Source: Mesostigma viride
Lineage: Eukaryota; Streptophyta; Mesostigmatophyceae; Mesostigmatales; Mesostigmataceae
Reading direction: 5' to 3'
DNA length: 64,000 nucleotides
Assembly (NCBI GenBank): GCA_009746045.1
Contig: RPFO01000027.1
Span: 4,712,177 to 4,776,176, forward strand
Shown here: one piece after another, positions 2,088 to 48,294 of the stretch
Layout of the letters: each line of letters opens with the position of its first letter
Numbering within the stretch: the stretch's first letter is position 1
Program-made: the position numbers and the translations under genes
Notes under the pieces: generated by a model
What the model was told of the DNA's origin: nothing
What the model saw: only the letters and a program-made list of their open reading frames with translations
The model's database searches: none

Positions 2088-4824
2088 TTGTTGTTACCCT
2101 GTACTTCTGGTCTCTTCTACCCTTTACTTCTGCTCTCTGGTTGCGGTTCTGCTTCGGTGTGCAGCGAGCCCTCGGCAGCCTCTTCCACCACCTCCGTCTC
2201 CGCCGCTGTCTCCTCGGCCCCCCCCGTGGTTCCCCTCACCGCGCTCATGCTCCTCCTGTGCAACATGGACCGCATCTGCATGAGCGTGGCCATTCTGCCC
2301 ATGGCCGCCGAGTTTGGCTGGGGGGAGGCGGCGCAGGGCGTCATCCAGTCGGCCTTCCTGTGGGGCTATACTGCCACCCAGGTGAGCGGCAAGCGTCCAC
2401 TATCTACTGAATGAGTCGACACAGTGATCATTGCAGTTCACTAACAGTAGTAGTGTACTAATAGTAGTAAGTGTACTAATAGTAGTAAGTGTACTGATAC
2501 TAGTAGTGTACTAATAGTAGTACGTGGACTGATACTAGTAGTGTACTAATAGTAGTAATTGTACTGATTGTACCCAATGGGCGGCGCATCGCATGATCCA
2601 GTCGGCCTTCCTGGTGGGATGATACAGCCATGCAGGTGAGAAGAACTTATACACCTACAGTAGTCCTCTACAAGTCGGTACAGCGCTCTTTGACTGATGA
2701 TACCCCGTAGGCGGCGAAACGGGTCATCCCGTTGGTTGGCTTACACTGTTACCCTGCAGGTGAGCGGCACTGGGGGAAAGGCATCCCAGAGTGGAAGAAT
2801 GTTGCCTGTATCATAGTATCGTGATAGCATATATAATAAACAGTACTAGTGGCACCCGCTGGCTTCGCCCAGCCCAAGACAGGGTCCCTTTTTTTGGCAG
2901 TACTTCGCCCCGCTGCCCGCTGCCCGCTGCCCGCTGCCCGCTGCCCGCTGCCCGCTGCCCGCTGCCCGCTGCCCGCTGCCCGCTGCCCGCTGCCCGCTGC
3001 CCGCTGCCCGCTGCCCGCTGCCCGCTGCCCGCTGCCCGCTGCCCGCTGCCCGCTGCCCGCTGCCCGCTGCCCGCTGCCCGCAGCCCGCAGCTTGCAGCCC
3101 GCTGCCCGCTGCCCGCAGCCCGCAGCTTGCAGCCCGCTGCCCGCTGCCCGCTGCCCGCTGCCCGCTGCCCGCTGCCCGCTGCCCGCTGCCCGCTGCCCGC
3201 TGCCCGCTGCCCGCTGGAATAGTACGGTGCTCGCTTCGCTCGCGGATTGGTGCTCAGTACGGTGCTCGCTCGCTTCGCTCGCTCGCCGTACGGTGCTCGC
3301 TCGCTTCGCTCGCTCGCAGTAGGGTGCTCGCTCGCTTCGCTCGCTCGCTGGGATTGGTGGTTAGTGATTCCGGTTGTTTTGGATTGGCGGGGAAGTTGCG
3401 ATGCCTTGGATAGTGCGGGATTACCTTACATTGCTAAATTAATATATAGGATCTCAGTGGAATATATTCTCTACTGATAACATCGTATGGCCACGCAGGG
3501 CATCATCGAACCGGCGTGGCTATAGGCAGCGCCGATTAGACGATGACCTGCGTGGCTTATGTGTGCGTGGCCATAAGCCACACATAAGCCACGCATAAGC
3601 CACACATAAGCCACGCATAAGCCATGCGTTAGCCACGCATAAGCCACGCACAAGCCACGCATAAGCCACGCACAAGCCACGCATAAGCCACGCAGGGCAT
3701 CTCCTCGTCGCCGGGCGTGAATGGGCGGTTATTGGGCCACGCATGTGACCCGAGAGCACCCACTGAGAATGTCACCTATAGAGAATATCAACCATAGAGA
3801 ACGTCACCTCCATGAGATACACGAGCGAATGCTGTTGTATGGGGGATACAATGCAGGTGAGCCACACAGGTGAGCGAAAAATCAACTAGAATGAGGGAGT
3901 GAAATACAGCTAACATGCTGTCCTCTCTGGCAATGGTCTCTGGTCAGTAAGTCGTATTGTTTAGTGGTGATGCCTACCAACGCGCCAAGGCTCCTTCGTG
4001 GTGATGCATCTCAAAGCGCCACGCGGTCTGTACTTGGCTGGGCACCTGCTGCCGTTTTGTCCGCTTTCCCCCTCTTCCATGCCTGTCGGCGCACTCACAC
4101 TCCACACTTCCATGCCAGTTTGCGGGGGGCTTCATAGCCAACAAGTTCGGGGGCGAGGAAGGTGGTTGCGGTGGCCGTTGAAGGGCCAGTAGTAATGCAT
4201 TTATGATGTTGCTGCCACCCACCCACCCACTTACCCCCCACCCACCCCCCACCCACCCACCCCCCACCCACCCCCCACCCACACCCACCCACCCACCCAC
4301 CCACCCACCTGCCCGCCCGCCCGCCCGCCCGCCCGCCCGCCCGCCCGCCCGCCCACCCACCCACCCACCCACCCACCCACCCACCAATCAGTTTGTGGGC
4401 GGTTCCATGGCTGACAAGTTCGGGGGCGAGAAGGTACTCTTCTGGGGACTTCTCTGGTGGTCCCTGGCCACCGTCATCATGCCCATGGCGCTCAAGGTGT
4501 GTGTCGCGGATGGCAGCATGATTATGGTGGCGATTAACTTGTGCTGGATAACGGCAGCAACTATGGTATTTGACAAACAGCCTTGTGCCTGACATTAGCA
4601 CCCAAGAAGCATTGCATATGGAGCATCCTTGTTGAGCACCGTGCAGGAGAACCAGCAAGGGAGGTTATTCACGGTGCTCAACAAGGGACCAGGAGTATGG
4701 TGGGATGCCATCTTGGGCAAAAAAGAGAGTTAAAGAAGTTAAAGAAGATGTGGGAGTTAAAGGAAACCATTCTGTGTCATGGGGGAAAAAAGAAAATTTC
4801 CTAAAACACACACACACACACACG

Positions 4825-4907
<83 letters not shown>

Positions 4908-7900
4908 TCCTCATCCAGACGAAGCCATTATTTGGACGAGAGACTTTCCCCTACATCACCACCATCTTTGCTATGCGCTTTGTTTCCGCGGGCTCGTCTT
5001 CCCAGCGGCCAGAAGATCTCTTTCTCTTGTTAAACACAATCTCTATACTACTATACTAGTATACTTTCAAGAGCTTGTCACCCCCGCGACGAGAAGTTCT
5101 ATTTTCCTCGTGTCACCCTGAGGTCTCCGTCTCATGTTGACCTCATCTCTCTCGCCTCTTCGCGCCCCGTTCCCCGTGCTGCCCTCATTCTCTCTCGTCT
5201 CTTCGCGCCCCGTTCCCCGTGCTGCCCTCATTCTCTCGTCTCTTCGTGCTCCGTTCCCCGTGCTGCCCTCATTCTCTCTCGTCTCTTCGCGCCCCGTTCC
5301 CCGTGCTGCCCTCATTCTCTCTCGTCTCTTCGCGCCCCGTTCCCCGTGCTGCCCTCATTCTCTCTCGTCTCTTCGCGCCCCGTTCCCCGTGCTGCCCTCA
5401 TTCTCTCGTCTCTTCGCGCTCCGTTCCCCGTGCTGCCCTCATTCTCTCTCGTCTCTTCGCGCCCCGTTCCCCGTGCTGCCCTCATTCTCTCGTCTCTTCG
5501 CGCTCCGTTCCCCGTGCTGCCCTCATTCTCTCTCGTCTCTTCGCGCTCCGTTCCCCGTGCTGCCCTCATTCTCTCGTCTCTTCGCGCCCCGTTCCCCGTG
5601 CTGCCCTCATTCTCTCTCGTCTCTTCGCGCCCCGTTCCCCGTGCGGCCCTCATTCTCTCGTCTCTTCGCGCTCCGTTCCCCGTGCTGCCCTCATTCTCTC
5701 TCGCCTCTTCGTGCTCCGTTCCCCGTGCTGCCGTCACCTCATGTTGACCTCATCTCTTGATACTGCTACTAGTATTTTCATATAGGGTCGCCTTCTACCA
5801 GTATTTTTATATAGGGTCGCCTTCCATCTGCTGGCATCATCACTAACTCGCGTTCACAGGAGCCTTTATGATTGGGATTGTCCACCCCCACAGGCACCGT
5901 AGGCGCGCGTGTTCCTCGCACTGCGATCATCAACAACTCGAGAGACTCACAAGAGCTTTTCTTCTTTGGTTTGCCTCTCCCCTCCCCCCACAGGCACCGT
6001 TGGAACTCGTGTTCCCGGCGGTGGTGTTTGCGCGCGTCGTGGTGGGCCTGGGGGAAGGGGTGGCCATGCCGTCCGCCAACAACCTGATCGCCAGGTAACA
6101 ATTTGGCATGAAACTTTTCTCGCCTGGCATGAAACGGAGCATCATGGAATGCCCTCATGTCAGGTAATGATGAAGCTTTAAGAGACCACCTAATGGCCAG
6201 GTAATAATGAAGCTTTCAGAAATAGCCGCAGTGCAAGATATTTCATACAGAAGAGTGTGCACAGATGTTGCCATCCTTTCCCACGTGACAGAGGGCATGT
6301 ACAGGTACCAAAATGCTTGCCAACACACTCAACGCCCTGTAACGGGGTATGTACCAGCACCCTCACGACCATGTAACGTGGCGTAGTACTGCAGCAGCGC
6401 CCTCACCGTCAGTAGTCTGAATACTGGCCAACACCCTCAAGGCCGGGGATCGTCGTTGTTGTTTCTTGGTTTATTAACCAGCTGGATGCCGCCTTATTGC
6501 CTTATGCCGCCTTCTACTCGACAACTGACCGCTCCGTTTTTCCCCGTGACGAATGCGTCATGGGCATCTGCTGTGTATTTCTCGCTGTCGCGGCCAGCTG
6601 GATGTCCTTCACCCTAAACAGTATCCTTGCTGATGCAAATGCAAATGTAAACGTATTATGTACCATGTTTCCATATCCATCGCTCCTTACATTTTGTTGT
6701 TTCCCACCGCTGGTTCCGGTACCCCACCTTCGCCACTGTTTCCTGTTTCTGGCCAGCTGAATGCCCCCCCCCTGGGCGCTCGTGAGCACTTGGGTGCAGT
6801 CATGGCAAAATTTTCTCATCGAGGCCCCACTACTGTTGTTCCCATCATGGCTCTCTTTTCTCGTTGTTGTTGATGCAACCAGCTGGATGTCCTTGTGTGC
6901 TCCCTGTGTGACCACCGCTCCGAAAATGTTTTTGTTCCCCGCTTTTGCTCTCTGTCTCTCGTTGATGTGGCTAGCTGGATGGCGCCTGGGTTGCGGTTGC
7001 AAGCACTGGGGCGCGACCATGGCTACATTCCCTCATCATCCTCAAACTGTTCCACACTTCCTTTTGCCTCCTGGTCATACGACTGTTTCCTATAAATGTT
7101 TCCTGTTTAACGCCAGCTGGATGCCGCCCCGGTTGCGGTCGCAAGCACTGGGCGCGATCATGGCGGGGTTTCATGGGGGCACCATGGCGGGGCTGCTGTT
7201 GGCGCCACCCATCATGACCAGGTAAACATTCCCCCGTCTGGTAGCACACCAAGGCTTGGCAAGGCCACCCCCTTTTGTGAAAATGTTGCGCACACCGTTA
7301 AGACTCTTAAGCACGTCGAGCAGTGACTTCTTAACGTGGCTGCGCTTCTGTTGGTGCTGCCCATGATGTCCAGGTAGACCGTCTTTGTTGATACCAGCTT
7401 TAGCTGTTTAGTGCTCAACTGTCATGAGCACGGCTGTCAGGTACTCATGACCATGGCGGGGCTGCCGCTGGCGCTGCCTGTCGCATCTAGGTACTACTAT
7501 GTCTTTTTCATTCATGTTGCCCTTGATAATACGCTCATGTTGCCCTTGATAATATTAATATTAATACGCATTCATGTTGCCCTTGATAATACGCTCATGT
7601 TGCCCTTGATAGTATTAATATTAATACGCATTCATGTTGCCCTTGATAATACGCTCATGTTGCCCTTGATAGTATTAATATTAATACGCATTCATGTTGC
7701 CCTTGATAATACGCTCATGTTGCCCTTGATAGTATTAATATTAATACGCATTCATGTTGCCCTTGATAATACGCTCATGTTGCCCTTGATAGTATTAATA
7801 TTAATACGCATTCATGTTGCCCTTGATAATACGCTCGTACGAGTATGACAGTGGCCTCTTATCATGGCACGGATGTGGTTGGCGCCGCCCATCATATCCA

Positions 7901-10882
7901 CATATGCGTATGGTTAGTTCATTCATCTTATCCACTCATGTTTCTATTTCATGTGGTCACGGTCTTAATATCGTGTGTTTAGAATACACAGCCGTATGTG
8001 CACTCTAGTACGGTTCAATGTTGTCCCGTGACGCTGCGCGGCAGTGCAGCGGAGTTGTGCCTTGTCCCGTAGCGGCGAGGCCATCATCATGACCCAATGA
8101 TGATGAACTCGACTAGAACACACAGTGGGGTGGGCATGCATAGCAGGTGCGCGTAGCAGGTACCTGGCCATGACATGATCGGCCCGGTAATTACTCCAAG
8201 CGGATCCCCATTTGGCTGTGGCGGGGACGTGTGAGTGCAGCGCCCGTGAGATGGGCCTGAGGCTTGCCCTACTCGCTATCATCCCTACGTCAGTTCCCCG
8301 TTCCTGGTAGGTGCATGCACCCTTTTCTTATCATATATGCAGCCTATTCTTCTCATGCAGCCTGTTCTTATCATTATTTGCGCTCGAGGAATTGTGTTGT
8401 TATTATTTTGTTAGTAGCACTAGTTAACAGCATGTCCGGAAGCCACCTTTTCTTAGGGCCTTGCAAAGCCGAAGAATGTTTACATGGGCTTCCAGAGTAA
8501 ATGATAAAGAGCCAAAGCCGCGGAACATTCAAGAGCCAAAGCCGCAGAATGTTTACATGGGCGTCCAGAGTAAAGGATAAAGAGCCAAAGCCGCAGAACA
8601 TTCAAGAGCCAAAGCTGCAGAATGTTTACGCGGGCGTCCAGAGTAAATGATAAAGAGCCAAAGCCGCAGAACATTCAAGAGCCAAAGCCGCAGAATGTTT
8701 ACGCGGGCTTCCAGAGTAAAGGATAAAGAGCCAAAGCCGCAGAACATTCAAGAGCCAAAGCCGCAGAATGTTTACGCGGGCGTCCAGAGTAAAGGATACA
8801 AAGCCGCAGAACATTCAAGAGCCAAAGCCGCAGAATGTTTACGCGGGCGTCCAGAGTAAAGGATACAAAGCCGCAGAACATTCAAGAGCCAAAGCCGCAG
8901 AATGTTTACATGGGCGTCCAGAGTAAAGGATAAAGAGCCAAAGGGAAAGACTAAAATGCCCCAGTTCAGCCTTCACGCCTCTGTCACGGCCCCCCCTTGC
9001 CCTTGCCCGCCTCTGACCTCCACCCTGCAGGTTCGGCTGGCGGTCCCTGTTCGTGGTCTTTGGCGTGCTGGGCCTGCCCCTGCTGGTCGCCTGGAAGCTG
9101 TTCATACCCCCCCGGCAGGCGCCCGCTCCCACGTCCGCATCCTCCCTGCCTTCTAGTGACCACAAGGCGGCCGCGGCTGCCTCCCAGGCAGAACAACGGG
9201 ATAGTAATTCTGGCAGCAGTGGCGCATTGCAGGTCTCCGATGCAAAGGCCCCCAAGGAGGCAGCCGTGTCGACAGCGGCAGCCAGGGATGTGTCCCTGGG
9301 GGAGCTCCTCTCCAAGCCACCCGTGTGGGCAATCATCATCGCCAACTTTGTTAACCACTGGGGCTACTTCATCTTCCTCAGCTGGATGCCGTCGTACCTG
9401 TTCAAGGTACGTGGTAACATCGGTGCACCGGAAGACCCTTGCATGAGCACCCTTGCAAGGTCAATGGTAACCGGTGACCTTGCATGAAAGATGTCTTCAC
9501 GTGCTGTGCTAGAGTTTCACCATACTGGTACTACTGTTCCTTGTACTAGTACCACTTGTAGGATGGATTTCTGTCATACCCTGCTTCAGCCCCCCCCATA
9601 TTGCAACCGATTTAATTGACATCCTTATTGGACGTAAGACCACTCCCTCCTTGTTTGATGTAAGATGTCAGAACTTGGAACCATAGACAAACAAACGACT
9701 TTGCAGCCTCAATTTTCTCAACCAGGCGCTCGACTAATCACTGTCACCGTCCTAGTTTTACCTATGATTATTCCCGAACAGTTGAATCATCCTGAAACCT
9801 GGCCTTTCAAACCGCAAATCTCGACCAGGTGCTCAGCTTTAGCACGCCTGCTTGGACCCCCTGGCGTCGTAAAATCTTTCATCCTTAAAAAATCCCTCAA
9901 GTGCACCAGCATAAACCGCATCCCTGAGCCCTCAACCGTACCAACCAATGCACCAGTCTCGCTCTCTTTGTTTCACAAACACGTATCTGTCGTATGTGTT
10001 TTGCCATTTTGTTTTAACCGATCCAGGTGCTCGGCTTCAACGTCCGCCGCTCCGCCCTCTTCAGCGTGCTGCCCTGGACCGCGATGGCCCTCGTGGGCTA
10101 CGCCGTTGGATGGCTCGCCGATAAAGCCATCGCGTCGGGCGTGCCCATCGGCACCGTCCGCAAGACCACGCAGTCGATATCCTTCCTTGGGCCCGCGGCC
10201 TCGCTCCTGCTGCTGTCCGGCACAAAGGACCCTGGCTGGGCCGTGGGCTACCTGTGCCTCGCGCTAGGCTTGAGCGCGTTCAACAACGCGGGTGAGTGAT
10301 ACCCCGGTGCTGTGGGTATAATAACTATAGTGACCGTGGTGCTGTGGCTGGAGTGCGAGTCTGCGGTTTCTAATAGCTATGTTTCGTCTGCTTGGCTGCT
10401 CAGCAAGCTCTTGATTTTTTTTTTGAATGTAGCCTTTAAAATGCCTACGCGTTGGTGTGACTCCTGCTCTTTGCACGGAATTTGTGTGCTGGTTTAAAGG
10501 CATTAATGTTGCTTTAAGTAGGCCAATCCCGTTGTTGTGCTGAAATCCTGTGCTCCCCCCTTTCTCACTCCTTTCTCACTCCTTTCTCCGTCGTTTTTCC
10601 CTGCCATTTCTGTAACCCTGCCCTATTAAAACATCATTGGACTTGGCAGGTTTCCTGGCAAACATCCACGACATTGCACCACGTCACGCGGGCCGTATCT
10701 TTGGCTTCAGCAACACAGGCGGCTCCATTTCGGGGATCATTGGAACCGCATGCACGGGGGCAATTTTGGAGCTGACCGGCTCATGGAAGCCCATCTTTTA
10801 CGTGACCATCGCATTCTACCTGCTTGGGACCGCTGCATGGCTCAGCCTGTGCAGTGGAGAGCGGTTATTTGACACAAGCTAG
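2088..10882 (+). CDS. PHT4/ANTR-type plastid anion (phosphate) transporter, MFS, 7 exons
   Basis: Exons: 2088-2381, 4392-4496, 5994-6094, 7117-7221, 9031-9406, 10027-10291, 10650-10882 (TAG). All junctions are GT-AG and phases agree, giving 492 residues from the ATG at 2088. The product follows the plant PHT4/ANTR family (SLC17-like major facilitator) along its length: [17 protein letters not shown] in the first membrane segment, [14 protein letters not shown] in the fourth, [32 protein letters not shown], and a C-terminal [20 protein letters not shown] block. Family members move inorganic phosphate or organic anions, mostly across plastid membranes. A central loop (about residues 230-290) is longer than usual and rich in Ala and Ser. 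The true N-terminus is uncertain and may include an upstream exon. The substrate cannot be told from sequence. Introns are full of repeats and exon-edge copies. Confidence 0.9.
2445..2570. repeat. 17-18 bp tandem repeat, PHT4 intron 1
   Basis: About seven imperfect copies of a unit like AGTGTACTAATAGTAGTA run in tandem just downstream of the exon 1 donor. The unit repeatedly carries TACTAAT, which resembles a branch-point sequence. Confidence 0.8.
2908..3215. repeat. (CCCGCTG)n heptanucleotide array
   Basis: Over 40 copies of CCCGCTG, with two short interruptions by CCCGCAG/CTTGCAG variants near 3080 and 3115. It lies in PHT4 intron 1. All three frames are open across it, giving spurious proline-rich reading frames. 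Confidence 0.95.
3216..3350. repeat. GCTCGCTCGCTTCGCTCGCT tandem repeat
   Basis: Four copies of a unit of about 34 bp containing GGTGCTCGCTCGCTTCGCTC, directly after the CCCGCTG array in PHT4 intron 1. The CTCGCTTCGCTCG core can form short hairpins. Confidence 0.8.
3559..3695. repeat. AAGCCACGCAT minisatellite
   Basis: About twelve copies of an 11-12 bp unit (CATAAGCCACGC and variants) in PHT4 intron 1. Confidence 0.85.
4217..4385. repeat. (CCCA)n/(CCCG)n microsatellite next to an acceptor
   Basis: C-rich tetranucleotide arrays end seven bases before the acceptor AG of PHT4 exon 2 (exon starts 4392). They effectively form an expanded polypyrimidine-like tract. Confidence 0.95.
4805..4905. 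repeat. (CA)n microsatellite
   Basis: About fifty CA dinucleotides with rare interruptions, in PHT4 intron 2. Confidence 0.98.
5150..5742. repeat. 41-43 bp minisatellite, PHT4 intron 2
   Basis: About fourteen copies of a pyrimidine-rich unit containing CGCGCCCCGTTCCCCGTGCT followed by GCCCTCATTCTCTCTCGTCT. Units differ by a CT dinucleotide and by C/T changes. The array is flanked on both sides by ATGTTGACCTCATCTCT (near 5134 and 5741). Confidence 0.95.
7510..7845. repeat. 60-bp minisatellite, PHT4 intron 4
   Basis: Five and a half near-identical 60-bp units, each holding two copies of CATGTTGCCCTTGATA separated by AATACGCT or ATTAATATTAATACGCATT. Near-identity implies recent homogenisation or expansion. 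Confidence 0.97.
8465..8942. repeat. 66-73 bp minisatellite, PHT4 intron 4
   Basis: About seven units containing GAGCCAAAGCCGCAGAA twice, followed by TGTTTACGCGGGCGTCCAGA. Two later units have lost a 7-bp piece. It lies upstream of exon 5 (9031). Confidence 0.95.
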
Positions 10883-11068
10883 CCAAGGCAAATTGTGTGG
10901 AAATGAAGTGCGGACTCCAGCATTACTTTGTATCTGATTTATTTCACTCTGTGTCAACCGGTGGGGTTTCTCTAGGAACTCCAAATTGTGAGTATGCTTG
11001 CGTTGGAATGCAGTCAGGGAATCATGTATAGGGAATGGGGCTTTTCATTCATTCCATCCCATGTTCCT

Positions 11069-11650
11069 TAAGGCCCTTAACATCCCCTTTGGTTTGCACA
11101 TTAGTAATGAGGATTTGTACGCTGATTTGCCCTATGTTTCCCACATTATTAGGCACAGGCGCCTGGGCCTAGCCGGGCACCTGGCCCGCACAGATCAGGT
11201 AGATACATCAGATAGACTAGCTGGCACCAAGCCCGCCCAGCCTGGGCGATATGTCCTCACCTGGCGTGCCCCTGGCCGCGCGCGGCAGGGCCGCCACCCG
11301 TGGACATTTCGTGATAGACTCGGCATGGACATGTGCTACACTAGACGTGACGGGCTCACACCCGGGCAGCCTCCTGGTTTGTCTGTAATCTGGAGGCAGA
11401 TGGTACGCAAGGATAGATGGCAAGTAGTGATGAAGGAGACCATGCACCCCCAAGTCTGTGGGGGCTCCGCGTGTGACCGCGTATGGCATTCATAGCGATT
11501 CGGGCCGCGGTGCCCACACCCCTGTAACTAGGACCTAGATAGCTTACACCATCCATTCCATCCCATGTTCCCCTCCCACTGAGGACTTATGCTCACGTGA
11601 CGCAGTCACGTGTCTATTAATTAATTAATTAAGTAATTAATTAATTAATT
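11069..11650 (+). mobile_element. LINE-A 3' end, 5'-truncated copy 1
   Basis: Nearly identical to the reverse complement of 43096-43697, the 3' end of the minus-strand LINE-A. The frame to the stop at 11495 encodes the region after the reverse transcriptase, with RHRRLGLAGHLARTDQVD and a DRLGMDMCYTRRDG block. A 3' UTR follows with the hairpin CACGTGACGCAGTCACGTG, then a (TTAA)n tail that abuts repeat A. The copy is truncated at its 5' end, as is usual for target-primed reverse transcription. Confidence 0.9.
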
Positions 11651-12355: not shown

Positions 12356-12359
12356 ATGT

Positions 12360-13880: not shown

Positions 13881-14207
13881 TTAGCCCTTCCATAGCAGAA
13901 TTGCGATATACCCCGCGGTGTATATGTGCAGCAAGTTCTTAACTTCGCAGGTAATCTCGAAGCTGAAGTACTCCCCTACGACGCAATGCCATGGAGCTCC
14001 AAACTTCTTGTCCATTTGCTCTTTCACAGTGCGGGCAGCCATTTCATAATTGCTGGAGTACTTTTCCACCGCAGTGATGACCATTTCTACGGCCTCAACG
14101 CGCACCTCCTCGATCATATCAGAGTGCTTGATGAGGGGATACTTCGCCATTTTTAGGTAGGCTTCCCGATCCGAGGGCACCACTTTGCTGTCCGCTTCGC
14201 CCGCCAT
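13881..14207 (-). CDS. DNAL4: axonemal dynein light chain, DNAL4/LC10 type
   Basis: A single-exon frame of 108 residues matches the DNAL4/LC10 branch of the LC8 superfamily along its whole length (human DNAL4 is about 105 residues). Visible signatures are PLIKHSDMIEEVRVEAVEM, an alpha-helical ITAVEKYSSNYEMAARTVKE block, MDKKFGAPWHCVVGE, and FEITCEVKNLLHIYTAGYIA. These proteins dimerise at the base of axonemal outer-arm dynein intermediate chains. I chose the ATG at 14207 because the protein then starts at the usual length; an in-frame ATG at 14231 would add eight residues. It is intron-less, unlike its neighbours, and head-to-head with IFT80. It could be an intron-less retrocopy, but the frame is intact and shows no poly(A) remnant that I can see. 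Confidence 0.92.
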   Translation of the reverse strand: MAGEADSKVVPSDREAYLKMAKYPLIKHSDMIEEVRVEAVEMVITAVEKYSSNYEMAARTVKEQMDKKFGAPWHCVVGEYFSFEITCEVKNLLHIYTAGYIAILLWKG

Positions 14208-17908: not shown

Positions 17909-17942
<34 letters not shown>

Positions 17943-26900: not shown

Positions 26901-29900
26901 CCCAAGTCTCTGACGGCATCCGGCCCATCCATCCACCCATTTATCTAGCCATCCTCTGCCCCTTTAAACCTTATGGCTGCCTGTGATGACACAGCACGCT
27001 CCACGACCTGCGCACGGGGTAGTCCCCTGTGCAGCAACGTGGGTGGAAGCAAGCTACTATACCCAAGTCTCTGACGGCAACCAGCCCATCCATCCACCCA
27101 TTTATCTAGCCATCCTCTGCCCCTTTAAACCTTATGGCTGCCTGTGACGACACAGCACGCTCCACGACCTGCGCACGGGGTAGTCCCCTGTGCAGCAACG
27201 TGGGTGGAAGCAAGCTACTATACCCAAGTCTCTGACGGCATCCAGCCCATCCATCCACCCATTTATCTAGCCATCCTCTGCCCCTTTAAGCCTTATGGCT
27301 GCCTGTGACGACACAGCACGCTCCACGACCTGCGCACGGGGTAGTCCCCTGTGCAGCAACGTGGGTGGAAGCAAGCTACTATACCCAAGTCTCTGACGGC
27401 AACCAGCCCATCCATCCACCCATTTATCTAGCCATCCTCTGCCCCTTTAAGCCTTATGGCTGCCTGTGACGACACAGCACGCTCCACGACCTGCGCACGG
27501 GGTAGTCCCCTGTGCAGCAACGTGGGTGGAAGCAAGCTACTATACCCAAGTCTCTGACGGCATCCAGCCCATCCATCCACCCATTTATCTAGCCATCCTC
27601 TGCCCCTTTAAACCTTATGGCTGCCTGTGACGACACAGCACGCTCCACGACCTGCGCACGGGGAAGCCCCCTGTGCAGCAACGTGGGTGGAAGCAAGCTA
27701 CTATACCCAAGTCTCTGACGGCATCCAGCCCATCCATCCACCCTTTTAACTATCCATCCCTGCGCCCTCTTGAAATTTTACGGCTGCCTGTGACGACACA
27801 GCACGCTCCACGACCTGCCCACGGGGAAGCCCCCTGTGCAGCAACGTGGGTGGAAGCAAGCTACTATACCCAAGTCTCTGACGGCATCCAGCCCATCCAT
27901 CCACCCTTTTAACTATCCATCCCTGCGCCCTCTTGAAATTTAACGGCTGCCTGTGACGACACAGCACGCTCCACGACCTGCGCACGGGGAAGCCCCCTGT
28001 GCAGCAACGTGGGTGGAAGCAAGCTACTATACCCAAGTCTCTGACGGCATCCAGCCACTACGCATTCTTCTAACTACGCACATTTACTCTTATATTGCCT
28101 TTTTCTTTCTTAAGAAATACCTTCAAAAGACCTGTCACTTGTTCGGGAGATTCTAGCAATCCCCTAAGCCCCCCAGCCCCCCCTCCGTTTCCCGGCCCCT
28201 TTTCCCATTTCCCCCCCCATGCCATACATCCTCCCTCCCCCCTCCTTTCCCGCTGGCCTTTCACTGAAAAACCTGCAATATATGCACAGACCCCCCACAC
28301 CCCCCCCGCCGCCCCACCCATCCTTTCCTACCTTTTTCCCCCTGCAGTTTATCCTCCCTCCCTCCCTCCTCCTTTCTCACTGGCCTTAATCCCCCCTCCC
28401 CCCTGCCAATGAAGAAAGAATGCGCTCCATGATCCCCCGCACGCGACAAGTGTGCGCCAAAACCATGATTGAGCTGTTATTTAAGTCTCTGATGGCGCCC
28501 TTGTAAGCGAACTTCCCCTTTTTATATTGTCCGTGAGCCTTTTGGGAATGGGGTTTGTTGTTACCATCCCCTGCCGATGAAGAAAAAATGCGCTTCATGA
28601 TTTCCCGCACGCGACATGCGTGTGCCCAAACCATGATTGAGCTGTTATTTAAGTCTCTGATGGCGCCCTCGTTAGGAAACTTCCCATGTGTTCATGATGT
28701 GGGCCATTTGATGAATGGGGCGTTGTTGTTACCCTTGTTTGTCCCGTTACCCCCATGCAAGTTTGAATGTGCCGTTCGCATTTGAGTACATCCTTCCGCA
28801 GTTTTTAGAGTCTTGTAAGACACCATCCACTCCTTTCTCAAATTTCTTACAACAATTTTTACCCCTCACGTTATTGCTATTGTTGTTCCGGCGCTTACTG
28901 TTATTATTTCTATTTTTGTCTGTTTCAACTACTCGTCCATCTCAGCCTTGAAGCTATCCTTTGAGCTCCATTCCCGTCAGTGAATCATTTCTATATTTTT
29001 GATACTTTTGATCGTTTCTATGCATCTCCCTTCCTGCCGATGAAGAGAAAACGCAGACAGACTTCCGCTCACGCATGCGTGGGCCCCAAAATGTGGATGA
29101 AACATTTAAGTCTCTGATGGCATTTTTTCCCCTATTTCCTGGATGCTTGTGCGCCTGGTCTCTCCAATACTTGAGAATCTTTGTGCACTTTCTTCGTAAC
29201 AGTGTGCCGTATCCCATGTGCAGCTAGCCATACGCAACAACGAAAGCCATCGCATCCAAACCCAGCCGGATGTGCTGGAAGATATGCCATCTTTGGCCTC
29301 TAGTTTCTTTCCTACCCCTTGGCCTAGGTTTCTTTCCTTACCCCCCCGACACAAGTAAAAAAAAAAAATAAAAAGATCCCTCTCGTTACAATCAGGTCGT
29401 GCTGAATGAGATGGTGGACCCCCGATGTTACTAACTCTTGGTGTACTTAACAACCCAACCTTTCGCCCCCTCCCCCTCCCACCAGGACGTGCTGAGCGAG
29501 ATGGTTGAGGACGTGGATGCGATTAGGATCTATCCTCCTCTTATCTTCCCTCTCAGTTCATGTACATTATCCCCACCCGCCAGGACGTGCTGAACGAGAC
29601 GGTGGAGGACCTGGACTTCCGGGACCGGGTAATCAACTTCTCGCTAGGCTACAGCCACCTGGTGGTGGCCACGTCCACGCAGTGCGTCATCTACAACACG
29701 TCCAACTGGAACACGCCGCACATGTTCGACGTGAGCACGCCCGTGCACCTGCTCGTCCAGGTAAGAGAGCTGTGCTGGTATGGATGCAATGGATGCGATG
29801 AGTACAATCAGTTCACAATGATGCCGTGATGCCATGGGTACAACGAAGGGGTGGGGCCCTGAGGGCACGAGGCTGGCGTTGGGAGGATGCGATAGCGTCG

Positions 29901-32900
29901 CAAGGCAAGCAACACAGGGTTACACTGACCAGCACCGTGACCAAGGAGTATCATGCTTTATGTTTGCGAGGCAAGAGCTCCTCACGTGCTTAGAATGCAA
30001 GTTTATACAGGGGCGAAATGTGCTATACTTGGCATGCTTTTTCATGGGGCAAATGCGTTGGTGTAGCGGTATAACTAACTTGGTCGTGGGACAGAATCTT
30101 TGAATCTGCTCGCATCGTCCCACAAAACTGGGAACCGGGTCGCTTTCGTGGTAGCCTTGTGAAGCGGTAGCCCACATCATCCGCCGAGCCCATCACACAA
30201 ACTTCACACACTTAGTCTCCCACCCATCTCCGGCCCGCCCATGTACCCAATTCTTCCACTGTTTACTCCCCTCCCTGGCCATCCAGACATCTGCCTTGTA
30301 CATACCATTGTTCAACTCTCTGCTGCTACTTGGCCCAGTGACGTGGTCAACATGTCCTGTGAAAGCCGTCTCATCTTCCACCCCCTTCCTCCACCCCTCA
30401 CTTATTCCCCCTGCACTGATGCCACATCCTGCAGTGGAGAAGCAACTATCTCATTCCCCCACCCCCCACCCCCTAACTCACCTCGTGGCAGTCGGAGAAG
30501 AACTTTCTGATGGTGGATAACGTCACCGGCCTGCGGCTTTTCTCGTACGAGGGTCGGCAGATTTGCAACCCCAAGTTCCAGGGTAAGGCCCTTCATGATT
30601 GCGGTTGATTCATGCCGCGTTCGCTATTCATCCACAAAGCTGTCAAGCTATATAGGTATTGTCCGCGTTTACGTGGTACGGGTGGGGTGGTGGTGGCTGA
30701 TCCAAATTGGCAACTCCCGCTTCCAGTGGGTACGGAGCGCGCTGGTATTGCACGCTGTGACTCTATCATGCTGCGAGGTTATATTAAAGTTGGATGACCT
30801 ACACGGGTGGGTGGCTTGTGGCAGATCTGGAGCCTCAAGTTCCAAGGTAAAACAAACCCTCGCGTTATCAACCCATGAAGCTGTCATGCAGCGACGTCCT
30901 CTCCTTATTATTACACTTAAATTTCATTTACAGCTGCTTGTTAGCTCCTGCATTGCCCTTGTTATGACGCTCTCATGTTGCCATCCTCACCTGCCACTGG
31001 CAGTCAGGCTCGTGCGTGCGTGGTGTCCACCTTCAGCGATCCTCACATTCAATCATATTCCGAACGGGTTTATGCCTGCTGTTGTCAGCGTCGCCTGCTA
31101 CGTACCCCAGGCCTGCGCGGGGACCTGCTGAATGCTCACGATCTTCCAATATGTTCCTATTGTCCCTGCTGCCCCCCTTTGTGCTATCCTTACTTCTTAC
31201 CCCAGGCCTACGAGTGGACCTGCTGAACGCGCAGAGTGTCACGCTGGCCAACGACATCCTGGCCGTGATCGACCGCTCCGACTCCAAGAGTGAGTAGACT
31301 GTCACAGGAACAAGCATTAGAGTCGAGCGTAAGGGGCAAGGAGTAGAGTGAGTGGAGTGTTATAGGGGCAAGGATTAGAATAAGTGGAGTGTTGTAGGGG
31401 CAAGGAGTAGAATGAGTGGCCTGCCTCCCCTTTGCCTGTCCTTCCGCCATCCCCTCCCCCCAGCCCTCTACCCATCTCTCATGTTGTCGGGTTTCATCCT
31501 CCCCCCCTCCCGCTTCGCTTGTCTCGTTCTCTCCCCCCCCCCCCCCCCCTCCCCAAAGCCATCCGTTTTTGACACGAAACCTCATATTTTGTTTCCTCCC
31601 CCTCCCCCTCCTGCTTCGCTTGTCCTTTCCTTATGCCCCCCCCCAAAAAAAACACGCACCCACCGCAGCTATCCGCTTCTTTGACACAGTCAGCGGCAAG
31701 CCGATGGGCGACCCGATCAGCCACAACCAGGAGGTGGTGGAGCTTGCCCTCAACAAGTGCGGCGCGAGCAGCGACCGCAAGCTGGTGTTCATCGACCGCA
31801 ACCGAGACCTGTACATCACACCCGTGCTGGTACGGCGCAATCGAACGTGCCATACGAGTATAAGTGCGCTGGTGGTCTCATTGATAGGTTGTTGGGTTGT
31901 CCAGGCATAAAACGAGCGCATGGCGGCGTCAGTTGTAACCTTAACGTCATGCACGTGCAGGTACGACGGACCGCCTGCAAGGCAGTGTTTCTGTGTGGAG
32001 CCGTGGCAGCTTGTGCCCCCCACCAGCGCGCAGTGGAGAGACGCGTCCAACGTGCATGCTAGCGTGCTCGCTCCAACACCACCTATACCATATACCTATC
32101 TACACCTATACCCTATACCTATCTACACCTATGCCCTATACCTATATATACCCGTGTGCTTGTGTGTGCATGTGCCCCCACATAATGTGTTGCATGTCTC
32201 TGCCCCCACCAGCGCCCGCAACTGTTCAAGCTGGGCACCATGTGCGACAGCGCGCAGTGGAACGACGCGTCCAACGTGCTGGCGGGCGTGATCGACCTCA
32301 AGCTGTCGGTGTGGTACTACCCAGACATTGTCTACGTGGACCGGGAGCTGTTGCCGCTGACCAAGTTTGTCAAGGACGTGAGGTGAGCTAAGGGGGAGGA
32401 TATAATAGGCTCGAATGTCATCAGGGGGCCTCCACTTCATTGATCCGGCGGAGCCCATTTTCGGAAGAACCAAAAGGTTCAAAGAAAGGGCGAAGCCAAT
32501 GTAGTAGACGCGCTGAGACGATTTCCATTGGTGTCTACAAGTTGGACGATGGATCTGGACGCAAAACTCCTGACTCTGCAGCTAGGATGGTACGACAAAA
32601 ACGGGATTGAAGGATTTCGGGGGAAATGCACGTCAAACTGTAACCCATCCATCCATCCATCCATCCATCCATCCATCCATCCATCCATCCATCCATCCAT
32701 CCATCCATCCATCCATCCATCCATCCATCCATCCATCCATCCATCCATCCATCCATCCATCCATCCATCCATCCATCCATCCATCCATCCATCCATCCAT
32801 CCATCCATCCATCCATCCATCCATCCATCCATCCATCCATCCATCCATCCATCCATCCATCCTGCCACCCACCCACCCACCCACCCACCCACCCACCCAC

Positions 32901-35248
32901 CCACCCACCCACCCACCCACCCACCCACCCACCCACCCACCCACCCACCCACCCACCCACCCACCCACCCACCCACCCACCCACCCACCCACCCACCCAT
33001 CTTCGCAAGCATAAGTCCTCGCCGCAGAGTCAGGAGTCTTTCGCCAAGATCCATCGTCCAATTAGTAGACGCCAAGGGAAATCGTCTCAGTGCGTCTACT
33101 ATAGTGGCTTCGCCCTTTCTTCGAACCCTTGGTTCTTCCGAAAATGGGCTCCGCCGAAGACCGTGTTAACGTGAAAGTTTGCACACATATTACTTGATAA
33201 CCTCGTGGCGCAGTCACGTGCTTATAATTAGTTTTATTTAATCATCAAGGGCGCGGGTTAGGGAAGGAAGGGGGAGGGGGGTGTAGGAAGGAGGGGTTGG
33301 TCAAGTTGAGGTCGACAGGGAGGGTTGTAAAATATATCTAGAAAAGAAAAATGAAAAGAAATAATAAAGCACTAAAACTAATAACTACTATAGAAAAACC
33401 TCCAGCTCACATTATCATGCGTTTCACTGTACTGTCAATGACCATAGGGCATGTATTTGCCTTCCCGTCGCCCTCATGTCTTTTGCATAGCAACGTTTTC
33501 AAGGGCCTCAAGTTGGTGCAGCCCTCTGGCTCCCAAAAGGTTCCTGTTTCTGCCCACAAACAGTCCTTTCGTAACCCCTGACACGATTCGTGATATCCCG
33601 ATTGCAGCGACCTTGCCAAGCCCCCCCCCCCCAATCCGGTCCTTAAGCTCACACCTGTTTATATTTCTGCGGGCGACTATGCTGGCTATGAATGCCCTGC
33701 CCACCCCAACAATTGATGTCCTGCCCACCCCAACGATGGATGCCCTGCCCGCCCCAATGATGCCTCACGCAACGACTTTGGCGAAGGGTCCCAAAATCCT
33801 TTCCTTGGGCTCGCGTATGCTTCCTGCTTCTGTCCACATGAATATATGCCAGGTAGATGCCAAATCTGTGCTAGTATGCTCCCGATCCTGTCCCTATCCT
33901 GTCCTGCACCTTGACTCACGACAACTTCACACGACAACCAACAGCACCTTTGGGAAGGGGCCCAAGATCCAGTCCTTGGGCTCGCTTATGTTTGGGCTTC
34001 CTGCTTCTGTCCGTGTGTATAGTGTTAGCCAGATATATGCTAATATGCCCCCAACCTACCTACCTCCTATGTCCCAATCTACCTCCCCCCCGCCACCTCT
34101 CGGCAACTTCACATGACCAACAGCGACTTTGGCAAGGGGCCCAAGATCCAGTCTTTCTTCGGGTCCCGTGTGACAGTCCGCCGCAGCGACGGCGCCGCGG
34201 TCACGTCCAACGTGTCGCCCTACCCGATCATGCTCTACCAGCACTGCCAGGCCAACCAGTGGGCCAAGGCCACGCGGCTCTGCCGCTTCATCAAGGTGAG
34301 CGCGTCGGCACGTGAGCCCGACGGTTGAGTGTAGCAGTGCCGCTCTGTCAAGGTGAGAGTGCGGGCAGCGTCGGTGTAGCGCTCCGCCTTCTCCCTCGTC
34401 CTTATGCTTTGCGTACACCATCATTATATTAGTAGTATATTTTGAATTTCTTTTAGCTATATATCTTTATGTATACTAGTATGTATACTATGGGGCGAAG
34501 TACATGTGCGCTGCTTTGTCAAAGGTGGCCATGTGAGCATGGGCTTGGGTCTCTGAACTACATGCCGCTTCATCGTGGTGAAGAATGGATGCATGATTGA
34601 TTGAATGAATCAATGAATGAATGAATGCATCACGGGGAAGACGCAAGCATATAACCTAGCACATGGAATCAACATCCTCGCAACCAACCAACCCTTGGGC
34701 ATGAGTGTCATTTGCTCTCACAGATGACTCCCAGCTAAGTGTCATCTGCTCCTGTGGCACTTTGGGCGTGTGGTGGGGGTGGCTATCGTGGCGGTTTCTA
34801 GGTGCCCTCCTTACCAAACCAATCACGGCCCTCCCAATTCCCACACCAGATGAACCACACTCCTTCCAACCTCCTCACCATACCAACCACGGTCCTCCCA
34901 ATATGGCTGCCCCCCCCCCCCCCCCAATAGGACCCCACGCTCTGGGCGTGCCTGGCCGCGATGGCGGTGGCAGCAAAGGAGCTGAGCACCGCAGAGACCG
35001 CGTTTGCTGCGATTGACGAGGTGGGTGTGGGTTGCTGTGCGGCGATTGACGAGGCGGGTGGGTGGCATCCTTGCATTCTTTCACTTGCATGGCATTTGCA
35101 TCTGTTCTTTTGTTTGCGAATGTTGCCTTGCATCAGACAGGCAAGCTGCACTAGATTCTTTCTGTACGCTTACGAAGGACAACATGTCCCCTTTCCCCAC
35201 TTCCCCCACACACACTCTCACTCACTCACTCTCTCTATATCCCCCCCC

Positions 35249-35285
<37 letters not shown>

Positions 35286-37667
35286 TACACACACACAATG
35301 TAGGCAGAAAAGCCTCACTGCCATCTTCGTTGATTTAAACAAACAAAACCTTTCAGCTGCACTACGTCCTCCCTATATGTTAACATATTGAATCGTTCCC
35401 CTGTCACCCACCCCACCCACCACCCAACCCCAGGTGGACAAGCTTTTACTCTATGGCTTCCTACGTCTCACAAAAGTCCCTTTTAAAGATTCCCCTTCCA
35501 CTGCCCCCCCCCCCCCTTCCCCTCCATACCCCCAGGTGGACAAGCTGCACTGCATCCGCCACATCATTCTCACAAAGGACTTTCTAATCCACTACCACGT
35601 CCCCCCCCCCCCCCCTACCCCAGGTGGACAAGCTGCACTACATCCTCCACATCAAGGAGATCCCGACGGAGGAGGGCCGGAACGCGGAGCTGGCGCTGCT
35701 GCGGCGCCGGCCCGACGAGGCCGAGTCCATCCTGCTGCAGGCCGGCCTCACGTTCCGCGCGATCAAGATGAACGTGAAGCTGTTCAACTTTGACCGGTGG
35801 GTTGTGGTGGTTCCAACTCTGACTGGTGGGTGGTGCCTTACGAAGCTGTAGTGGTTCAGGTGGTTGGACTAGCGAAGATGAACGTGAAGCTGTTCAACTT
35901 TGACCGGTGGGTGGTTGTGATGCGCTGGACCATTACCCGTGGGTGGTGGTGATGCGCTGTCGGTTCGGGTGGTTCCCCTCGCGAATGCTATCAACGGGAC
36001 AGCTATCACCTGCGCGATCATATGCGCTGGTTGTCTCTTTGATGTGTTTGAGTTCTCTCATGGATATATCCACGATATGTTGATGTTGACGATATATTGA
36101 GCGTCAAGCTCTGTTACTTCCAACGGTGGGCGGCAGCGCTGGTGTAAAGAATACATAGGAGGTGTTACGAGAGTCTATTGCTTGTTGTGCTGCAGATATA
36201 TATGAGCCAAGGTACCATGCAGATAAGTTGTCAAAAACAGGTAGTCGAGCTTCTGGTCTGATCTTGCCATCATGCTGATCTGTCCTCGCGGGTCTGGTCT
36301 GTGAGTGTGACATCCTTGTTTGTGACGTCTGCCAGCGCTCTGGAGCTTGCGATCGACCACTAGATGTTTTTTAGCTCGGTGGCGGCCATTCCCTCTCTCT
36401 CCATCCAGCCCAGCACTCACGCTATAGGGTCCTTCAGCACTCGCGCTGTATGGTCCTTCAGCACTCAAGCTGTAGGGTCCTTCAGCACTCACGCCCTGTA
36501 GGGTCCTTCAGCACTCGCGCTGTATGGTCCTTCAGCACTCGTGCTGTATGGTCCTTCAGCACTCATGCTGTATGGTCCTTCAGCACTCGCGCTGTATGAT
36601 CTCATCCTCCTCCCTGCGTGCATCCGCGTGCGTGCAACTTAATCCGCGTGCGTGACGTCTGTGTGTGTGACATCTGCCAGCGCGCTGGAGCTCGCGGTAA
36701 ACTACAAGACGCACGTGGACACAGTGCTGTGGTACCGCGGGCAGTACTTGGAGAGCGTGCGGCAGCCCGAGACCAACCAGCGCTTCCTTCAGTACTCGCA
36801 GCAGGTGAGGGGGGGATGAGAGAATTATGGTGGGTGATGCGACGAGGTCAGAATTAATGGAATGACATTACAGTGAAAGAGAGGGTGGGTGGATTCGTGG
36901 GGTTGGATTTGATTGGGTCGTGATGAGAGAGCATCTGGTGGATGGACGGGAGAGCATCTGATTATGGTGGGTGAGCATGATGTGTTAATCGATTAATGCA
37001 CAGCGAGGGGCAACAGCCAGAGACCAATCTGTGCTTTTTTTCCGGTACACACAGTAGGTGAGCGGCTGGGGGGTGGACAACATGTGGCTATACATCAACC
37101 AGGAGTGATTGTCCCTGGGAGGGGGGACAGTGAGGCGATAGGTTTGGACACTGGATGGGATATGGAGTAATTTGGGTTGAGGCGTGCCAGAGACTTGGCT
37201 TGGTTCTGCTGCAACCGCCCAAGGTGGCAGCAGAAGAACGGCGCATAGATGATGGTTCAAGAGGCTTGGTGGGTGATGCGCTGGTTGGCGTGCGGTGCTG
37301 CTAAGGACAACCCACTTGCATCCTCTTTCGCTCGCGGTGGTGTCACCAATCATTACCTGCTTACGTCCTCTTATGAACTGTGAGGTTGTGCTCTCTTCTC
37401 GTCTCTGTCATCTTGTCAATTTCCGACAATGTGCTATGAAGTTAGACAACTATGTGCTCTCTTGAAAATGTGGCAATGTTCTCGTTTATCGCAGTCTCAC
37501 TACACGGTTTATTGATGTTACCGTTCCTCAATCAATTTGTTATTTGTTGTTTACCTGTTGTTATCTTGGGACAGGTGGAGGTCGACCCCGAGAAGATCCG
37601 TGCCAAGATGCAGCAGGAGAAGGAGAAGGAGGCGGCCCGCCCAGGGGCCCGCCGGTACCTGGCTTGA
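15250..37667 (+). CDS. IFT80: intraflagellar transport protein IFT80, 19 exons, 763 aa
   Basis: Exons: 15250-15286, 16056-16165, 17487-17592, 18284-18376, 19341-19427, 19741-19829, 23621-23731, 24643-24780, 25561-25746, 29584-29760, 30492-30582, 31206-31289, 31669-31829, 32213-32382, 34124-34295, 34931-35020, 35624-35796, 36681-36804, 37575-37667 (TGA). All are GT-AG with matching phases; total 2,292 nt, 763 residues (human IFT80 is 777). The first exon is only 37 nt (MRLKI...); its last base completes the His before [18 protein letters not shown]. Two WD40 propellers (about residues 15-290 and 300-560) show [48 protein letters not shown] and [20 protein letters not shown]. The C-terminus is helical ([20 protein letters not shown]). 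IFT80 belongs to IFT complex B (peripheral IFT-B2) and is needed for anterograde transport and cilium assembly. Confidence 0.96.
16166..17486 (+). other. IFT80 intron 2, no further feature
   Basis: 1.3-kb intron. It contains loosely repeated AGTGCTTTC/GCAGTGC words at 16240-16400 with CAGTAGAAATGTCTT twice (about 16278 and 16357), a weak tandem duplication. No additional exon is needed: exons 2 and 3 join directly to give the expected spacing between the WD-repeat strands. Confidence 0.6.
17911..17944. repeat. (CAGG)n microsatellite
   Basis: Eight tetranucleotide units in IFT80 intron 3. Confidence 0.95.
20230..23446. repeat. 3.2-kb (CCCCTT)n polypyrimidine array in IFT80 intron 6
   Basis: The sense strand is uninterrupted pyrimidine for about 3.2 kb. 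It begins as CCCTTT hexamers (about 20246-20362), then runs as CCCCTT hexamers with CCCTT pentamers interspersed, and a few C6 runs and TTCTT variants. The opposite strand is (GGGGAA)n, with G-quadruplex and triplex (H-DNA) potential. All six frames are open, which produces giant spurious Phe-Pro/Ser-Pro or Gly-Lys/Gly-Arg reading frames. It ends 175 bp before exon 7. Confidence 0.98.
25820..26275. repeat. (GGTG)n/(GGCG)n microsatellite after an IFT80 donor copy
   Basis: G-rich tetranucleotides, GGTG then GGCG then GGTG, start at a duplicated copy of the exon 9 donor (25803-25830), whose sequence is already CAGGTGGGTGGGTGG. Strong G-quadruplex potential lies on the sense strand. Confidence 0.97.
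26407..26598. repeat. (ATTCT)n pentanucleotide array
   Basis: About 38 copies of ATTCT in IFT80 intron 9, essentially perfect. Confidence 0.98.
26805..28057. repeat. 161-163 bp satellite, eight tandem units
   Basis: Units begin at GGCTGCCTGTGACGACACAG: 26975, 27136, 27297, 27458 and 27619 are spaced 161 bp apart, then 27782 and 27945 are spaced 163 bp, with an earlier unit near 26813. Each contains CTATACCCAAGTCTCTGACG and CCATCCATCCACCC. Units are almost identical. Three diverged relatives sharing the AAGTCTCTGA(T/C)GGC end lie at about 28407-28500, 28567-28670 and 29038-29125. All are inside IFT80 intron 9. Confidence 0.95.
31311..31420. repeat. donor-like tandem repeat after IFT80 exon 12
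   Basis: Three units of about 33-40 bp containing GAGTGAGTGGAGTGTTATAG / GGGGCAAGGA follow the exon 12 donor (AAGA|GTGAGT). Each repeats a GTGAGT-like site. Confidence 0.75.
32447..33155. mobile_element. foldback element 1 with (CATC)n/(CCAC)n core, IFT80 intron 14
   Basis: Arms of about 140 bp (32447-32587 and 33015-33155) are inverted copies of one another at roughly 85-90% identity. The tips read GGCGGAGCCCATTTTCGGAA on the left and its complement on the right. Between them lie (CATC)n at 32643-32861 and (CCAC)n at 32862-33000. No transposase frame is present. The same tip sequence bounds a second element at 51610-52257. I found no clear target-site duplication. Confidence 0.85.
35250..35300. 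repeat. (CT)n(CA)n microsatellite
   Basis: Compound dinucleotide tract in IFT80 intron 16. Confidence 0.9.
36405..36600. repeat. 24-27 bp minisatellite, IFT80 intron 17
   Basis: About eight copies of GGTCCTTCAGCACTC(G/A)CGCTGTA in tandem, upstream of exon 18. Confidence 0.9.
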
Positions 37668-42890: not shown

Positions 42891-43095
42891 TTGGGAGTAT
42901 ATGTAGCACATATCTCGGAGAAGGGGTATATGGCATATAATACACTCTGGGCTACTTCCTGCAAGGCTACTAGGGTGTAAACTACACCTGCTCTGGGCCT
43001 GCACAAAGTGCACCTGCACACCACTATGACTCAGTATCCGAGCACCTAACGAAAGGTGCTGGCATAGGGGGGAAGATCAGCATGGCTATATACAA
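42891..43095 (-). mobile_element. LINE 3' UTR fragment
   Basis: Carries CTTGCAGGAAGTAGCCCAGA and ATATGTGCTACATATACTCC, then joins abruptly to the next LINE fragment at 42890 without its own tail. Confidence 0.6.
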
Positions 43096-48100: not shown

Positions 48101-48290
48101 CGTCGGGCTACTCAGGTAAAACACGTGATCAATCTGCTTTTACGGGCACGAAAAGTTGGGTATGCCATGCTGTCACATTGAGAGTTTTTCCGGTGAAATG
48201 GGTGTTAGTTTATTTCCATATAACAGTTAAGGTGACCCAGGTATGCCAAAAATAGCCTGAAATGCCTAGTTGTGCCTAAATTGGGGTGCC
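45132..48290. other. no gene recognised between two LINEs
   Basis: Contains TCATGTGCGGCGTGGGACAC at 45239-45258 (shared with 51.4 kb), a tandem repeat of AATATCAATATATTCAAGAT at about 45556 and 45599, a diverged duplication at 46837-46925 / 46926-47030, and a G-rich stretch at 47400-47545. Open frames (for example 45502-45972 on the plus strand) resemble nothing I know. Confidence 0.5.
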
Positions 48291-48294
48291 CGCA

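Follow-up and report, generated by a model that had tools for sequence, protein, structure and literature searches.

The stretch of DNA analysed here, 64,000 nucleotides from Mesostigma viride and referred to as the window, contains IFT80, a transporter gene and a third gene, and the first two were modelled as 19 IFT80 and 7 PHT4 exons, giving 24 introns, with an average length of 1143 bp, and 48 exon edges. The transporter is of the major facilitator type (Pfam MFS_1), with vesicular glutamate transporters and sialin as its best PDB sequence matches; the name PHT4 comes from a preliminary description of this DNA. The IFT80 protein joined from the window exons aligns over its whole length with Mesvir1/15773 (jgi, Mesostigma viride), with 100% identity in the best local alignment. 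Mesvir1/15773 is two residues longer than the first IFT80 model, and implies a different exon 1 donor, which was then adopted, and the model equals the Mesvir1 protein except near exon 1. Furthermore, the model aligns with solved IFT80 without duplicated stretches, and the coding sequences of IFT80 and PHT4 cross each of the copy arrays described below as one intron, suggesting that no intron was added by the copies. Between IFT80 and the transporter gene, the minus strand carries an apparently single-exon reading frame for a dynein light chain at 13881-14207 (Pfam Dynein_light, E=9e-25). Minus-strand reverse-transcriptase ORFs at 42504-50896, with RVT_1 matches at 44211-45131 and 49739-50896 and a zf-RVT match at 48295-49344 (minus strand) that is below its cut-off, are probably retrotransposon remnants. 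The third gene (52764-62371) is only roughly modelled, its frame probably being broken in a G run near 60570, and its first exon has a weak, sub-threshold xyloglucan fucosyltransferase match.

Within the introns of these genes lie worn copies of the adjoining exon edges, often in series. Those found in the window are listed below with their alignment scores.

2580..2640, + strand: PHT4 exon 1 donor copy, GT kept; score 38, 82% identity over 61 columns; the real site follows 2381
2709..2769, + strand: second copy of the PHT4 exon 1 donor, GT kept; score 22
4092..4163, + strand: PHT4 exon 2 acceptor copy, AG kept; score 34; exon start 4392
5885..5915, + strand: PHT4 exon 3 acceptor copy, intron part homologous too; score 23; exon start 5994
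6460-6493, 6737-6829 and 6970-7023, + strand: serial copies of the PHT4 exon 4 acceptor; scores 20, 38 and 39; exon start 7117
near 6598 and 6883, + strand: further copies of the PHT4 exon 4 acceptor, placed by eye
7337-7379, 7450-7493 and 7863-7900, + strand: serial copies of the PHT4 exon 4 donor, GT lost in the last; scores 25, 22 and 22; the real site follows 7221
9822..9862, + strand: weak copy of the PHT4 exon 6 acceptor; score 16 only
19650..19690, + strand: IFT80 exon 6 acceptor copy, mostly intron side; score 27; exon start 19741
24358..24642, + strand: nested tandem units 5' of IFT80 exon 8 (start 24643), score 41; the exon-edge copy, of ~94 bp, is at ~24549, with 0.88 for its exon part (34 nt), and lies inside a block that recurs at ~188 bp, this larger repeat being recognised by eye
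25190-25240 and 25427-25480, + strand: two copies of the IFT80 exon 9 acceptor; scores 21 and 30
25806..25826, + strand: IFT80 exon 9 donor copy; score 19, 95% over 21 nt; a G-rich 4-bp array follows
29393..29517, + strand: two copies of the IFT80 exon 10 acceptor, 98 and 188 bp upstream of 29584; scores 20 and 33
30820..30850, + strand: IFT80 exon 11 donor copy; score 21
31098..31138, + strand: IFT80 exon 12 acceptor copy; score 27
31991..32070, + strand: copy of positions 9-81 of IFT80 exon 14; score 36; AG not kept in the extended alignment
33770..33990, + strand: two copies of the IFT80 exon 15 acceptor; scores 26 and 43
35355..35566, + strand: three copies of the IFT80 exon 17 acceptor, the two nearer ones with pyrimidine-rich tract and AG; scores 16, 26 and 41
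35875..35919, + strand: IFT80 exon 17 donor copy in a ~110-bp tandem unit, exon bases identical at 32/32; score 41
36307..36364, + strand: IFT80 exon 18 acceptor copy; score 34
36997..37087, + strand: IFT80 exon 18 donor copy; score 29
61726..61863, + strand: two copies of an acceptor edge of the third gene; scores 15 and 27 with intron flank; exon start 61945

In the exon-only test the acceptor copies of the third gene, with a score of 13, do not surpass the best of the 24 other introns, and none of the 6 edges of that gene reaches 15; it was left out of the edge tallies for the former reason.

The copies were assigned to their own edges by alignment against all introns. When tandem arrays were masked and each 60-nt exon edge was aligned to every intron, a ranking in which the initial guess of the IFT80 exon 1 donor was used, 7 of the 24 introns had their own donor edge as the best of 24, and 11 their own acceptor edge, with 1 expected in each case; own edges scored up to 36 and other edges at most 17, a value that a reversed own edge reached once. 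With a longer query that took in at most 100 bases of the exon and 30 of the intron, 30 nt being excluded, 17 of the 48 edges had a direct copy scoring at least 20 in their own intron; this score was reached by 7 of the 1104 cross-pairings (maximum 31, once, intron flank included), and 14 of the 24 introns have at least one edge copy at this level. The statement of the preliminary description that such copies occur in most introns holds at this threshold. Its 14 clear cases were also largely recovered: 12 score at least 17, the one at 9824 scores 16, and the one at 35030 falls in the excluded 30 nt, yet its own donor edge ranked first, with a score of 14, in the ranking. Absent from that description are several of the strongest cases, namely the acceptors of IFT80 exons 8, 15 and 17, the exon 17 donor and both edges of PHT4 exon 4, as well as the copies at 61726-61863 in the third gene. 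Edges and their most distant recognised copies enclose up to 5997 of 27442 intron bp, arrays included.

The specificity of the copies for exon edges was assessed with arrays masked, at a score of at least 20 and within 700 bp. Copies were found for 12/48 exon edges and 14/46 junction windows, and for 17/586 intron-interior and 3/271 intergenic windows. Exon-interior windows gave none out of 66 at 17 or more and one at 15 or more. The copies of exon edges are direct in orientation: reversed edges gave 0/48 at 20 or more and 3/48 at 15 or more in the same test, in which reversed windows reached 20 in 9/586 cases for intron interiors and 4/271 for intergenic DNA. The far edge of an exon, compared with the intron on the wrong side, gave 0/21 at 15 or more (exons of at least 115 nt only). 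A dispersed repeat or introner was also considered as the source and rejected on a single case, the IFT80 exon 17 donor copy, for which a genome search that skips simple repeats gave matches only beside its own exon. Spliced-RNA retrocopies are ruled out as well, because the copies bring intron flank with them, in agreement with the preliminary description, in which they had been regarded as DNA-level duplications.

An independent sample was drawn from chaperonin (PF00118) and dynein heavy chain (PF08393) exon matches in the same assembly; it comprises 20 stretches with 49 introns modelled between adjacent Pfam exon matches only, the exon ends being models from the Pfam matches and the splice matrix of the window rather than annotation. 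A splice and frame quality rule kept 44 of the 49 introns (L041_0, L051_2, L053_0, L053_1 and L054_2 were dropped). Two chaperonin loci (G000, C1641:60944-67934 and C887:341605-349664), with three exon matches of identical scores on opposite strands, represent either a duplication of recent date or two separately assembled haplotypes and were kept out of the counts. Own edges had copies in 13/88 cases against 41/3784 cross-pairings at a score of at least 15, and in 7/88 against 2/3784 at 20 or more; in 9 of the 44 introns the top-ranking donor edge was the intron's own, and in 4 the same was true of the acceptor, again with 1 expected for each. At 15 or more, the wrong-side intron gave 0/50, the reverse complement of the own edge 0/88 and the exon interior 3/390. 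An exon-plus-junction query found copies for 19/88 edges at 20 or more, in a setting without cross-pairing control. Six stretches (L038, L039, L040, L044, L052 and L055) contribute the 13 edges, and clear copy alignments include those in L052, L040, L044 and L055. A single dynein gene, L052, accounts for 6 of the 13 edges at 15 or more and for 4 of the 7 at 20 or more; without it the sample gives, by hand count, 7/78 and 3/78. The effect is not peculiar to the two genes of the window, and in this respect the suggestion that it occurs more widely in the genome holds, but it is uneven and rarer in the sample, and the regularity attributed to it was overstated: with arrays masked and at 15 or more, 16/48 edges have copies in the window and 13/88 in the sample, 6 of them in one gene.

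We consider that the worn exon-edge copies are, with a probability of about 80%, local tandem duplications that sometimes span a splice junction and whose inner copy decays neutrally. The introns of Mesostigma viride would undergo frequent local tandem duplication, with units of ~60-200 bp in the clearer cases, and a unit spanning a junction would give two copies of the exon edge, the splice site and the flanking intron. Only the outermost copy could serve without adding sequence to the mRNA, and purifying selection would keep it, while the inner copy would turn into intron and decay as neutral sequence; repeated duplication at one junction would yield serial copies. Exon edges would look like the source since the exon side barely changes and the intron duplicate changes on both sides, and owing to this constancy of the exon side old copies should be recognisable mainly against the exon. 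The duplications themselves may arise, for example, through break or nick repair. Support for tandem duplication comes from the excess of own-edge copies, their direct orientation and their confinement to the exon near the junction, from whole-unit homology in clear cases, the absence of codon-position bias, chance-level retention of splice dinucleotides and the abundance of direct duplications inside introns, and from neutral simulations that come close to the observations. Against it stand the excess of copies at the junctions of the window over a uniform neutral model, the pairs in which the intron part shows no homology, and the surprisingly free tolerance of duplicated splice sites.

The first of these results bears on an alternative that we regard as unlikely, in which splice junctions are duplication hot spots, due for example to R-loops, pyrimidine tracts or nucleosome edges, and the main engine of intron growth. 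The comparison of edges with intron interiors was made with each array cut to two copies, and this collapse of interior copy number affects the ratio. At a score of at least 20, copies were found for 12/48 edges and 71/779 interior windows in the window, a ratio of 2.74 (CI 1.45-7.00), and for 10/88 and 53/876 in the sample, a ratio of 1.88 (CI 0.86-6.03); the pooled ratio is 2.16 (CI 1.30-4.45). Uniform neutral simulations gave 0.6-1.35, so that both the window and the pooled ratios exceed the simulated range, as hot spots would predict, but the window had been chosen for its striking look, the confidence interval of the sample includes 1, and at 15 or more the sample ratio is 1.23 (CI 0.70-2.22). 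Hot spots could also account for the position of the best copies, since the highest score belongs to the copy closest to the exon in 7/7 multi-copy edges of the window, but in the sample this holds for just 5/10, ties included; an age gradient along the intron ('conveyor'), with the nearest copy the youngest, was accordingly rejected as not replicated. Furthermore, acceptors prevail among the copied edges of the window (12/17) and donors among those of the sample (16/19), so that no one junction feature stands out; the switch is possibly a matter of small numbers. A modest excess of copies at junctions is possible; in the independent sample it falls short of significance. Duplications in direct orientation are also frequent within introns (196/897 interior windows at 20 or more, arrays of period >12 unmasked), and a mode of growth centred on splice sites, as first proposed for this DNA, is not established. 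In simulations at the same rates, copies at 15 or more appeared at 1-9% of edges when junction-spanning events were accepted at 0.3 and at 8-35% at full acceptance; the 33% of the window and 18% of the sample in the same comparison suggest that junction-spanning events are tolerated about as well as interior ones.

Other arrays are present in the same introns. IFT80 intron 9 contains at 26815-28056 a young long-unit tandem array, a 161-bp unit repeated 7.7 times at 97%, and arrays of this kind may feed the duplication process. A 440-bp array of period 4 (GGGC/GGGT type) at 25827-26268 follows directly after the exon 9 donor copy, and the GTGGGT of the duplicated donor edge may have been its seed. 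A 3.2-kb (TTCCCC)n array in IFT80 intron 6 (20252-23448) has an extreme strand skew, with a GC skew of ~-0.95 in 20001-22000.

The second result bears on short templated insertions, in which break repair copying nearby sequence would place pieces of exon edges in introns without any tandem unit. We regard them as improbable as a general source of the copies, since whole tandem units are clear in several places. The ~110-bp unit at the IFT80 exon 17 donor repeats whole in the alignment, intron part included; the nearer copy of the exon 15 acceptor lies in a ~180-190-bp unit homologous over both intron and exon parts; and in the third gene three units of ~100 bp can be aligned. Successive sites in the hand-made list are spaced by 57 to 345 bp. 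The intron parts are more alike than any non-trivial cross pair in 9 of 25 hand-listed pairs (7 outright, and 2 in which the one partner that did better was the same segment) and show no homology by this test in the other 16, which is somewhat above what neutral tandem simulation gives and could be expected if pieces were inserted without a unit. Shuffling, applied to 30 pairs, is weak for long units; of the five pairs left out of the cross-pair test, four (IFT9A 2, PHT4A 4, PHT4A 5 and IFT17D 2) showed no homology by shuffling and IFT9D gave p=0.029. Against templated insertion, decay alone predicts much of the loss of the intron part. For 19 of the 25 pairs tallied by hand, homology was found in 2/3 with exon identity of at least 0.9, 4/11 at 0.8-0.9 and 1/5 at 0.7-0.8, and the simulation gave a detectable intron part in 28/32 (>0.9), 21/35 (0.8-0.9) and 3/20 (0.7-0.8) in a first setting and in 27/33, 19/31 and 5/17 in a second; the observed homology is somewhat below the simulated one in the middle class, observed and simulated pairs having been scored by different tests. 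Simulated detection falls with exon identity because both copies of the intron part decay, but only one copy of the exon part. These simulations, with uniform rates, random sequence and chosen parameters, give bounds rather than fits. Insertions are further disfavoured by the absence of reversed edges at the scores given above (20 or more in the window, 15 or more in the sample).

Under tandem duplication, the template of a serial copy may be the exon or another copy, and here the picture is mixed. Among 10 pairs of serial copies compared, 4 share more identical differences than expected by chance, one at the IFT80 exon 15 acceptor (4/4) and three at the PHT4 exon 4 donor (4 to 6); in the remaining six, one of which has just 9 sites, shared differences are not above chance.

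Once made, the copies decay as neutral sequence would. For this analysis copies were chosen on exon bases only, with 8 junction bases left out, and at a score of at least 14 there were 21 matches; the cross-pairing rate at this level, 65/1104, means that ~3 of 48 edges possibly match by chance. Nineteen of the 21 align through the junction (2 were unaligned), and thus include the splice site, and GT or AG is kept in 14 of these 19, near the expectation from ~82% identity squared. Divergence from the exon is 10-25% for most copies, and mismatches are spread evenly over the three codon positions (76/384, 73/375 and 84/367; p=0.53), which argues that no coding constraint acts on them.

These figures weigh on a further alternative, that selection preserves the copies as regulatory decoys or alternative splice sites. 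In its favour, many copies do look like strong splice sites, in line with the decoy sites suggested in the preliminary description: in a hand-made list of 27 scored copy sites that retain GT or AG, 20/27 score no lower than the 95th percentile of GT/AG sites in introns. Nothing suggests, however, that they are maintained by selection, since the dinucleotides are retained at about the rate that overall identity predicts and codon-position bias is absent, and use of the sites is predicted to shift the frame or add a stop in 25/27; we consider such a role very unlikely. Cells presumably splice past these decoys, and because 25/27 would shift the frame or add a stop, it is surprising that duplicated splice sites should be so freely tolerated.

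Finally, chance similarity or an assembly artefact has a negligible probability: some cross-pairings with intron flank do reach high scores, but exon-only own scores exceed cross-pairings in both window and sample, the cross-pairing, reverse-strand, wrong-side and exon-interior controls rule out chance, divergence of mostly 10-25% from the exon is not readily made by misassembly, and the same pattern occurs in other contigs.

Beyond tandem duplication with neutral decay as such, a bolder proposal seems rather unlikely, namely that exon edges are recurrent seeds of intron growth, with a roughly twofold junction bias and splicing that ignores strong inner decoys and would let them accumulate almost as freely as interior duplications; fossil edge and what grew with it would then account for much of the intron length around many exons, here up to the 5997 bp given above.

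The AGGT tandem duplication model of intron gain is associated with Rogers in 1989, Gao and Lynch in 2009 and Hellsten in 2011. A close precedent for our case is found in the potato RdRp gene, where a tandem duplication across an intron-exon boundary took up the 3' part of the intron, with its tract and splice site, together with the 5' portion of the exon that follows; an 83-bp tandem duplication within an intron is mentioned as well (Ma, Lan and Niu, 2016; PMC4974935). Being a junction-crossing tandem duplication, it is a direct precedent for one event, and the view that no such system had been described does not stand for the single event. In potato the mRNA retains the duplicated piece of exon and a new intron is formed (PMC4974935), whereas in Mesostigma no residues are duplicated in the IFT80 coding sequence, the intron absorbs the copy, and many edges are affected, often serially. 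In the AGGT model an exonic AGGT is duplicated and a new intron results (PMC3443670); there, too, local tandem duplication makes extra splice sites, but in Mesostigma an existing junction is duplicated and the intron lengthens. Similarly, tandem duplication of coding sequence in Drosophila is described as leading to novel intron positions (Lehmann, 2010; PMC2891723), and a duplicated exonic piece becomes intronic in both cases; in Drosophila this involves proto-splice sites within exons and new intron positions, while in Mesostigma old introns become longer. The part of the Mesostigma viride genome paper at hand (Liang, 2019; PMC6947507) reports long introns, with a mean of 1142 bp that the 24 introns of the window match closely (1143 bp), and attributes their length to repetitive elements, which make up 30.1% of intron space; no mention of exon-edge copies was found in it. 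A limited literature search over titles and abstract openings gave nothing like serial exon-edge copies in introns among the matches listed. What seems to be new is the frequency and serial decay of junction-spanning copies, the single event being already published (PMC4974935).

The introns of Mesostigma viride thus offer a readable record of intron lengthening without transposons, in which each copy is a fossil of a duplication and the exon is the fixed reference against which it can be read. If junction-spanning duplications are tolerated like interior ones, the spliceosome must choose the outer of near-identical sites. For those who annotate Mesostigma genes, many strong-looking intronic splice sites may be decayed duplicates.
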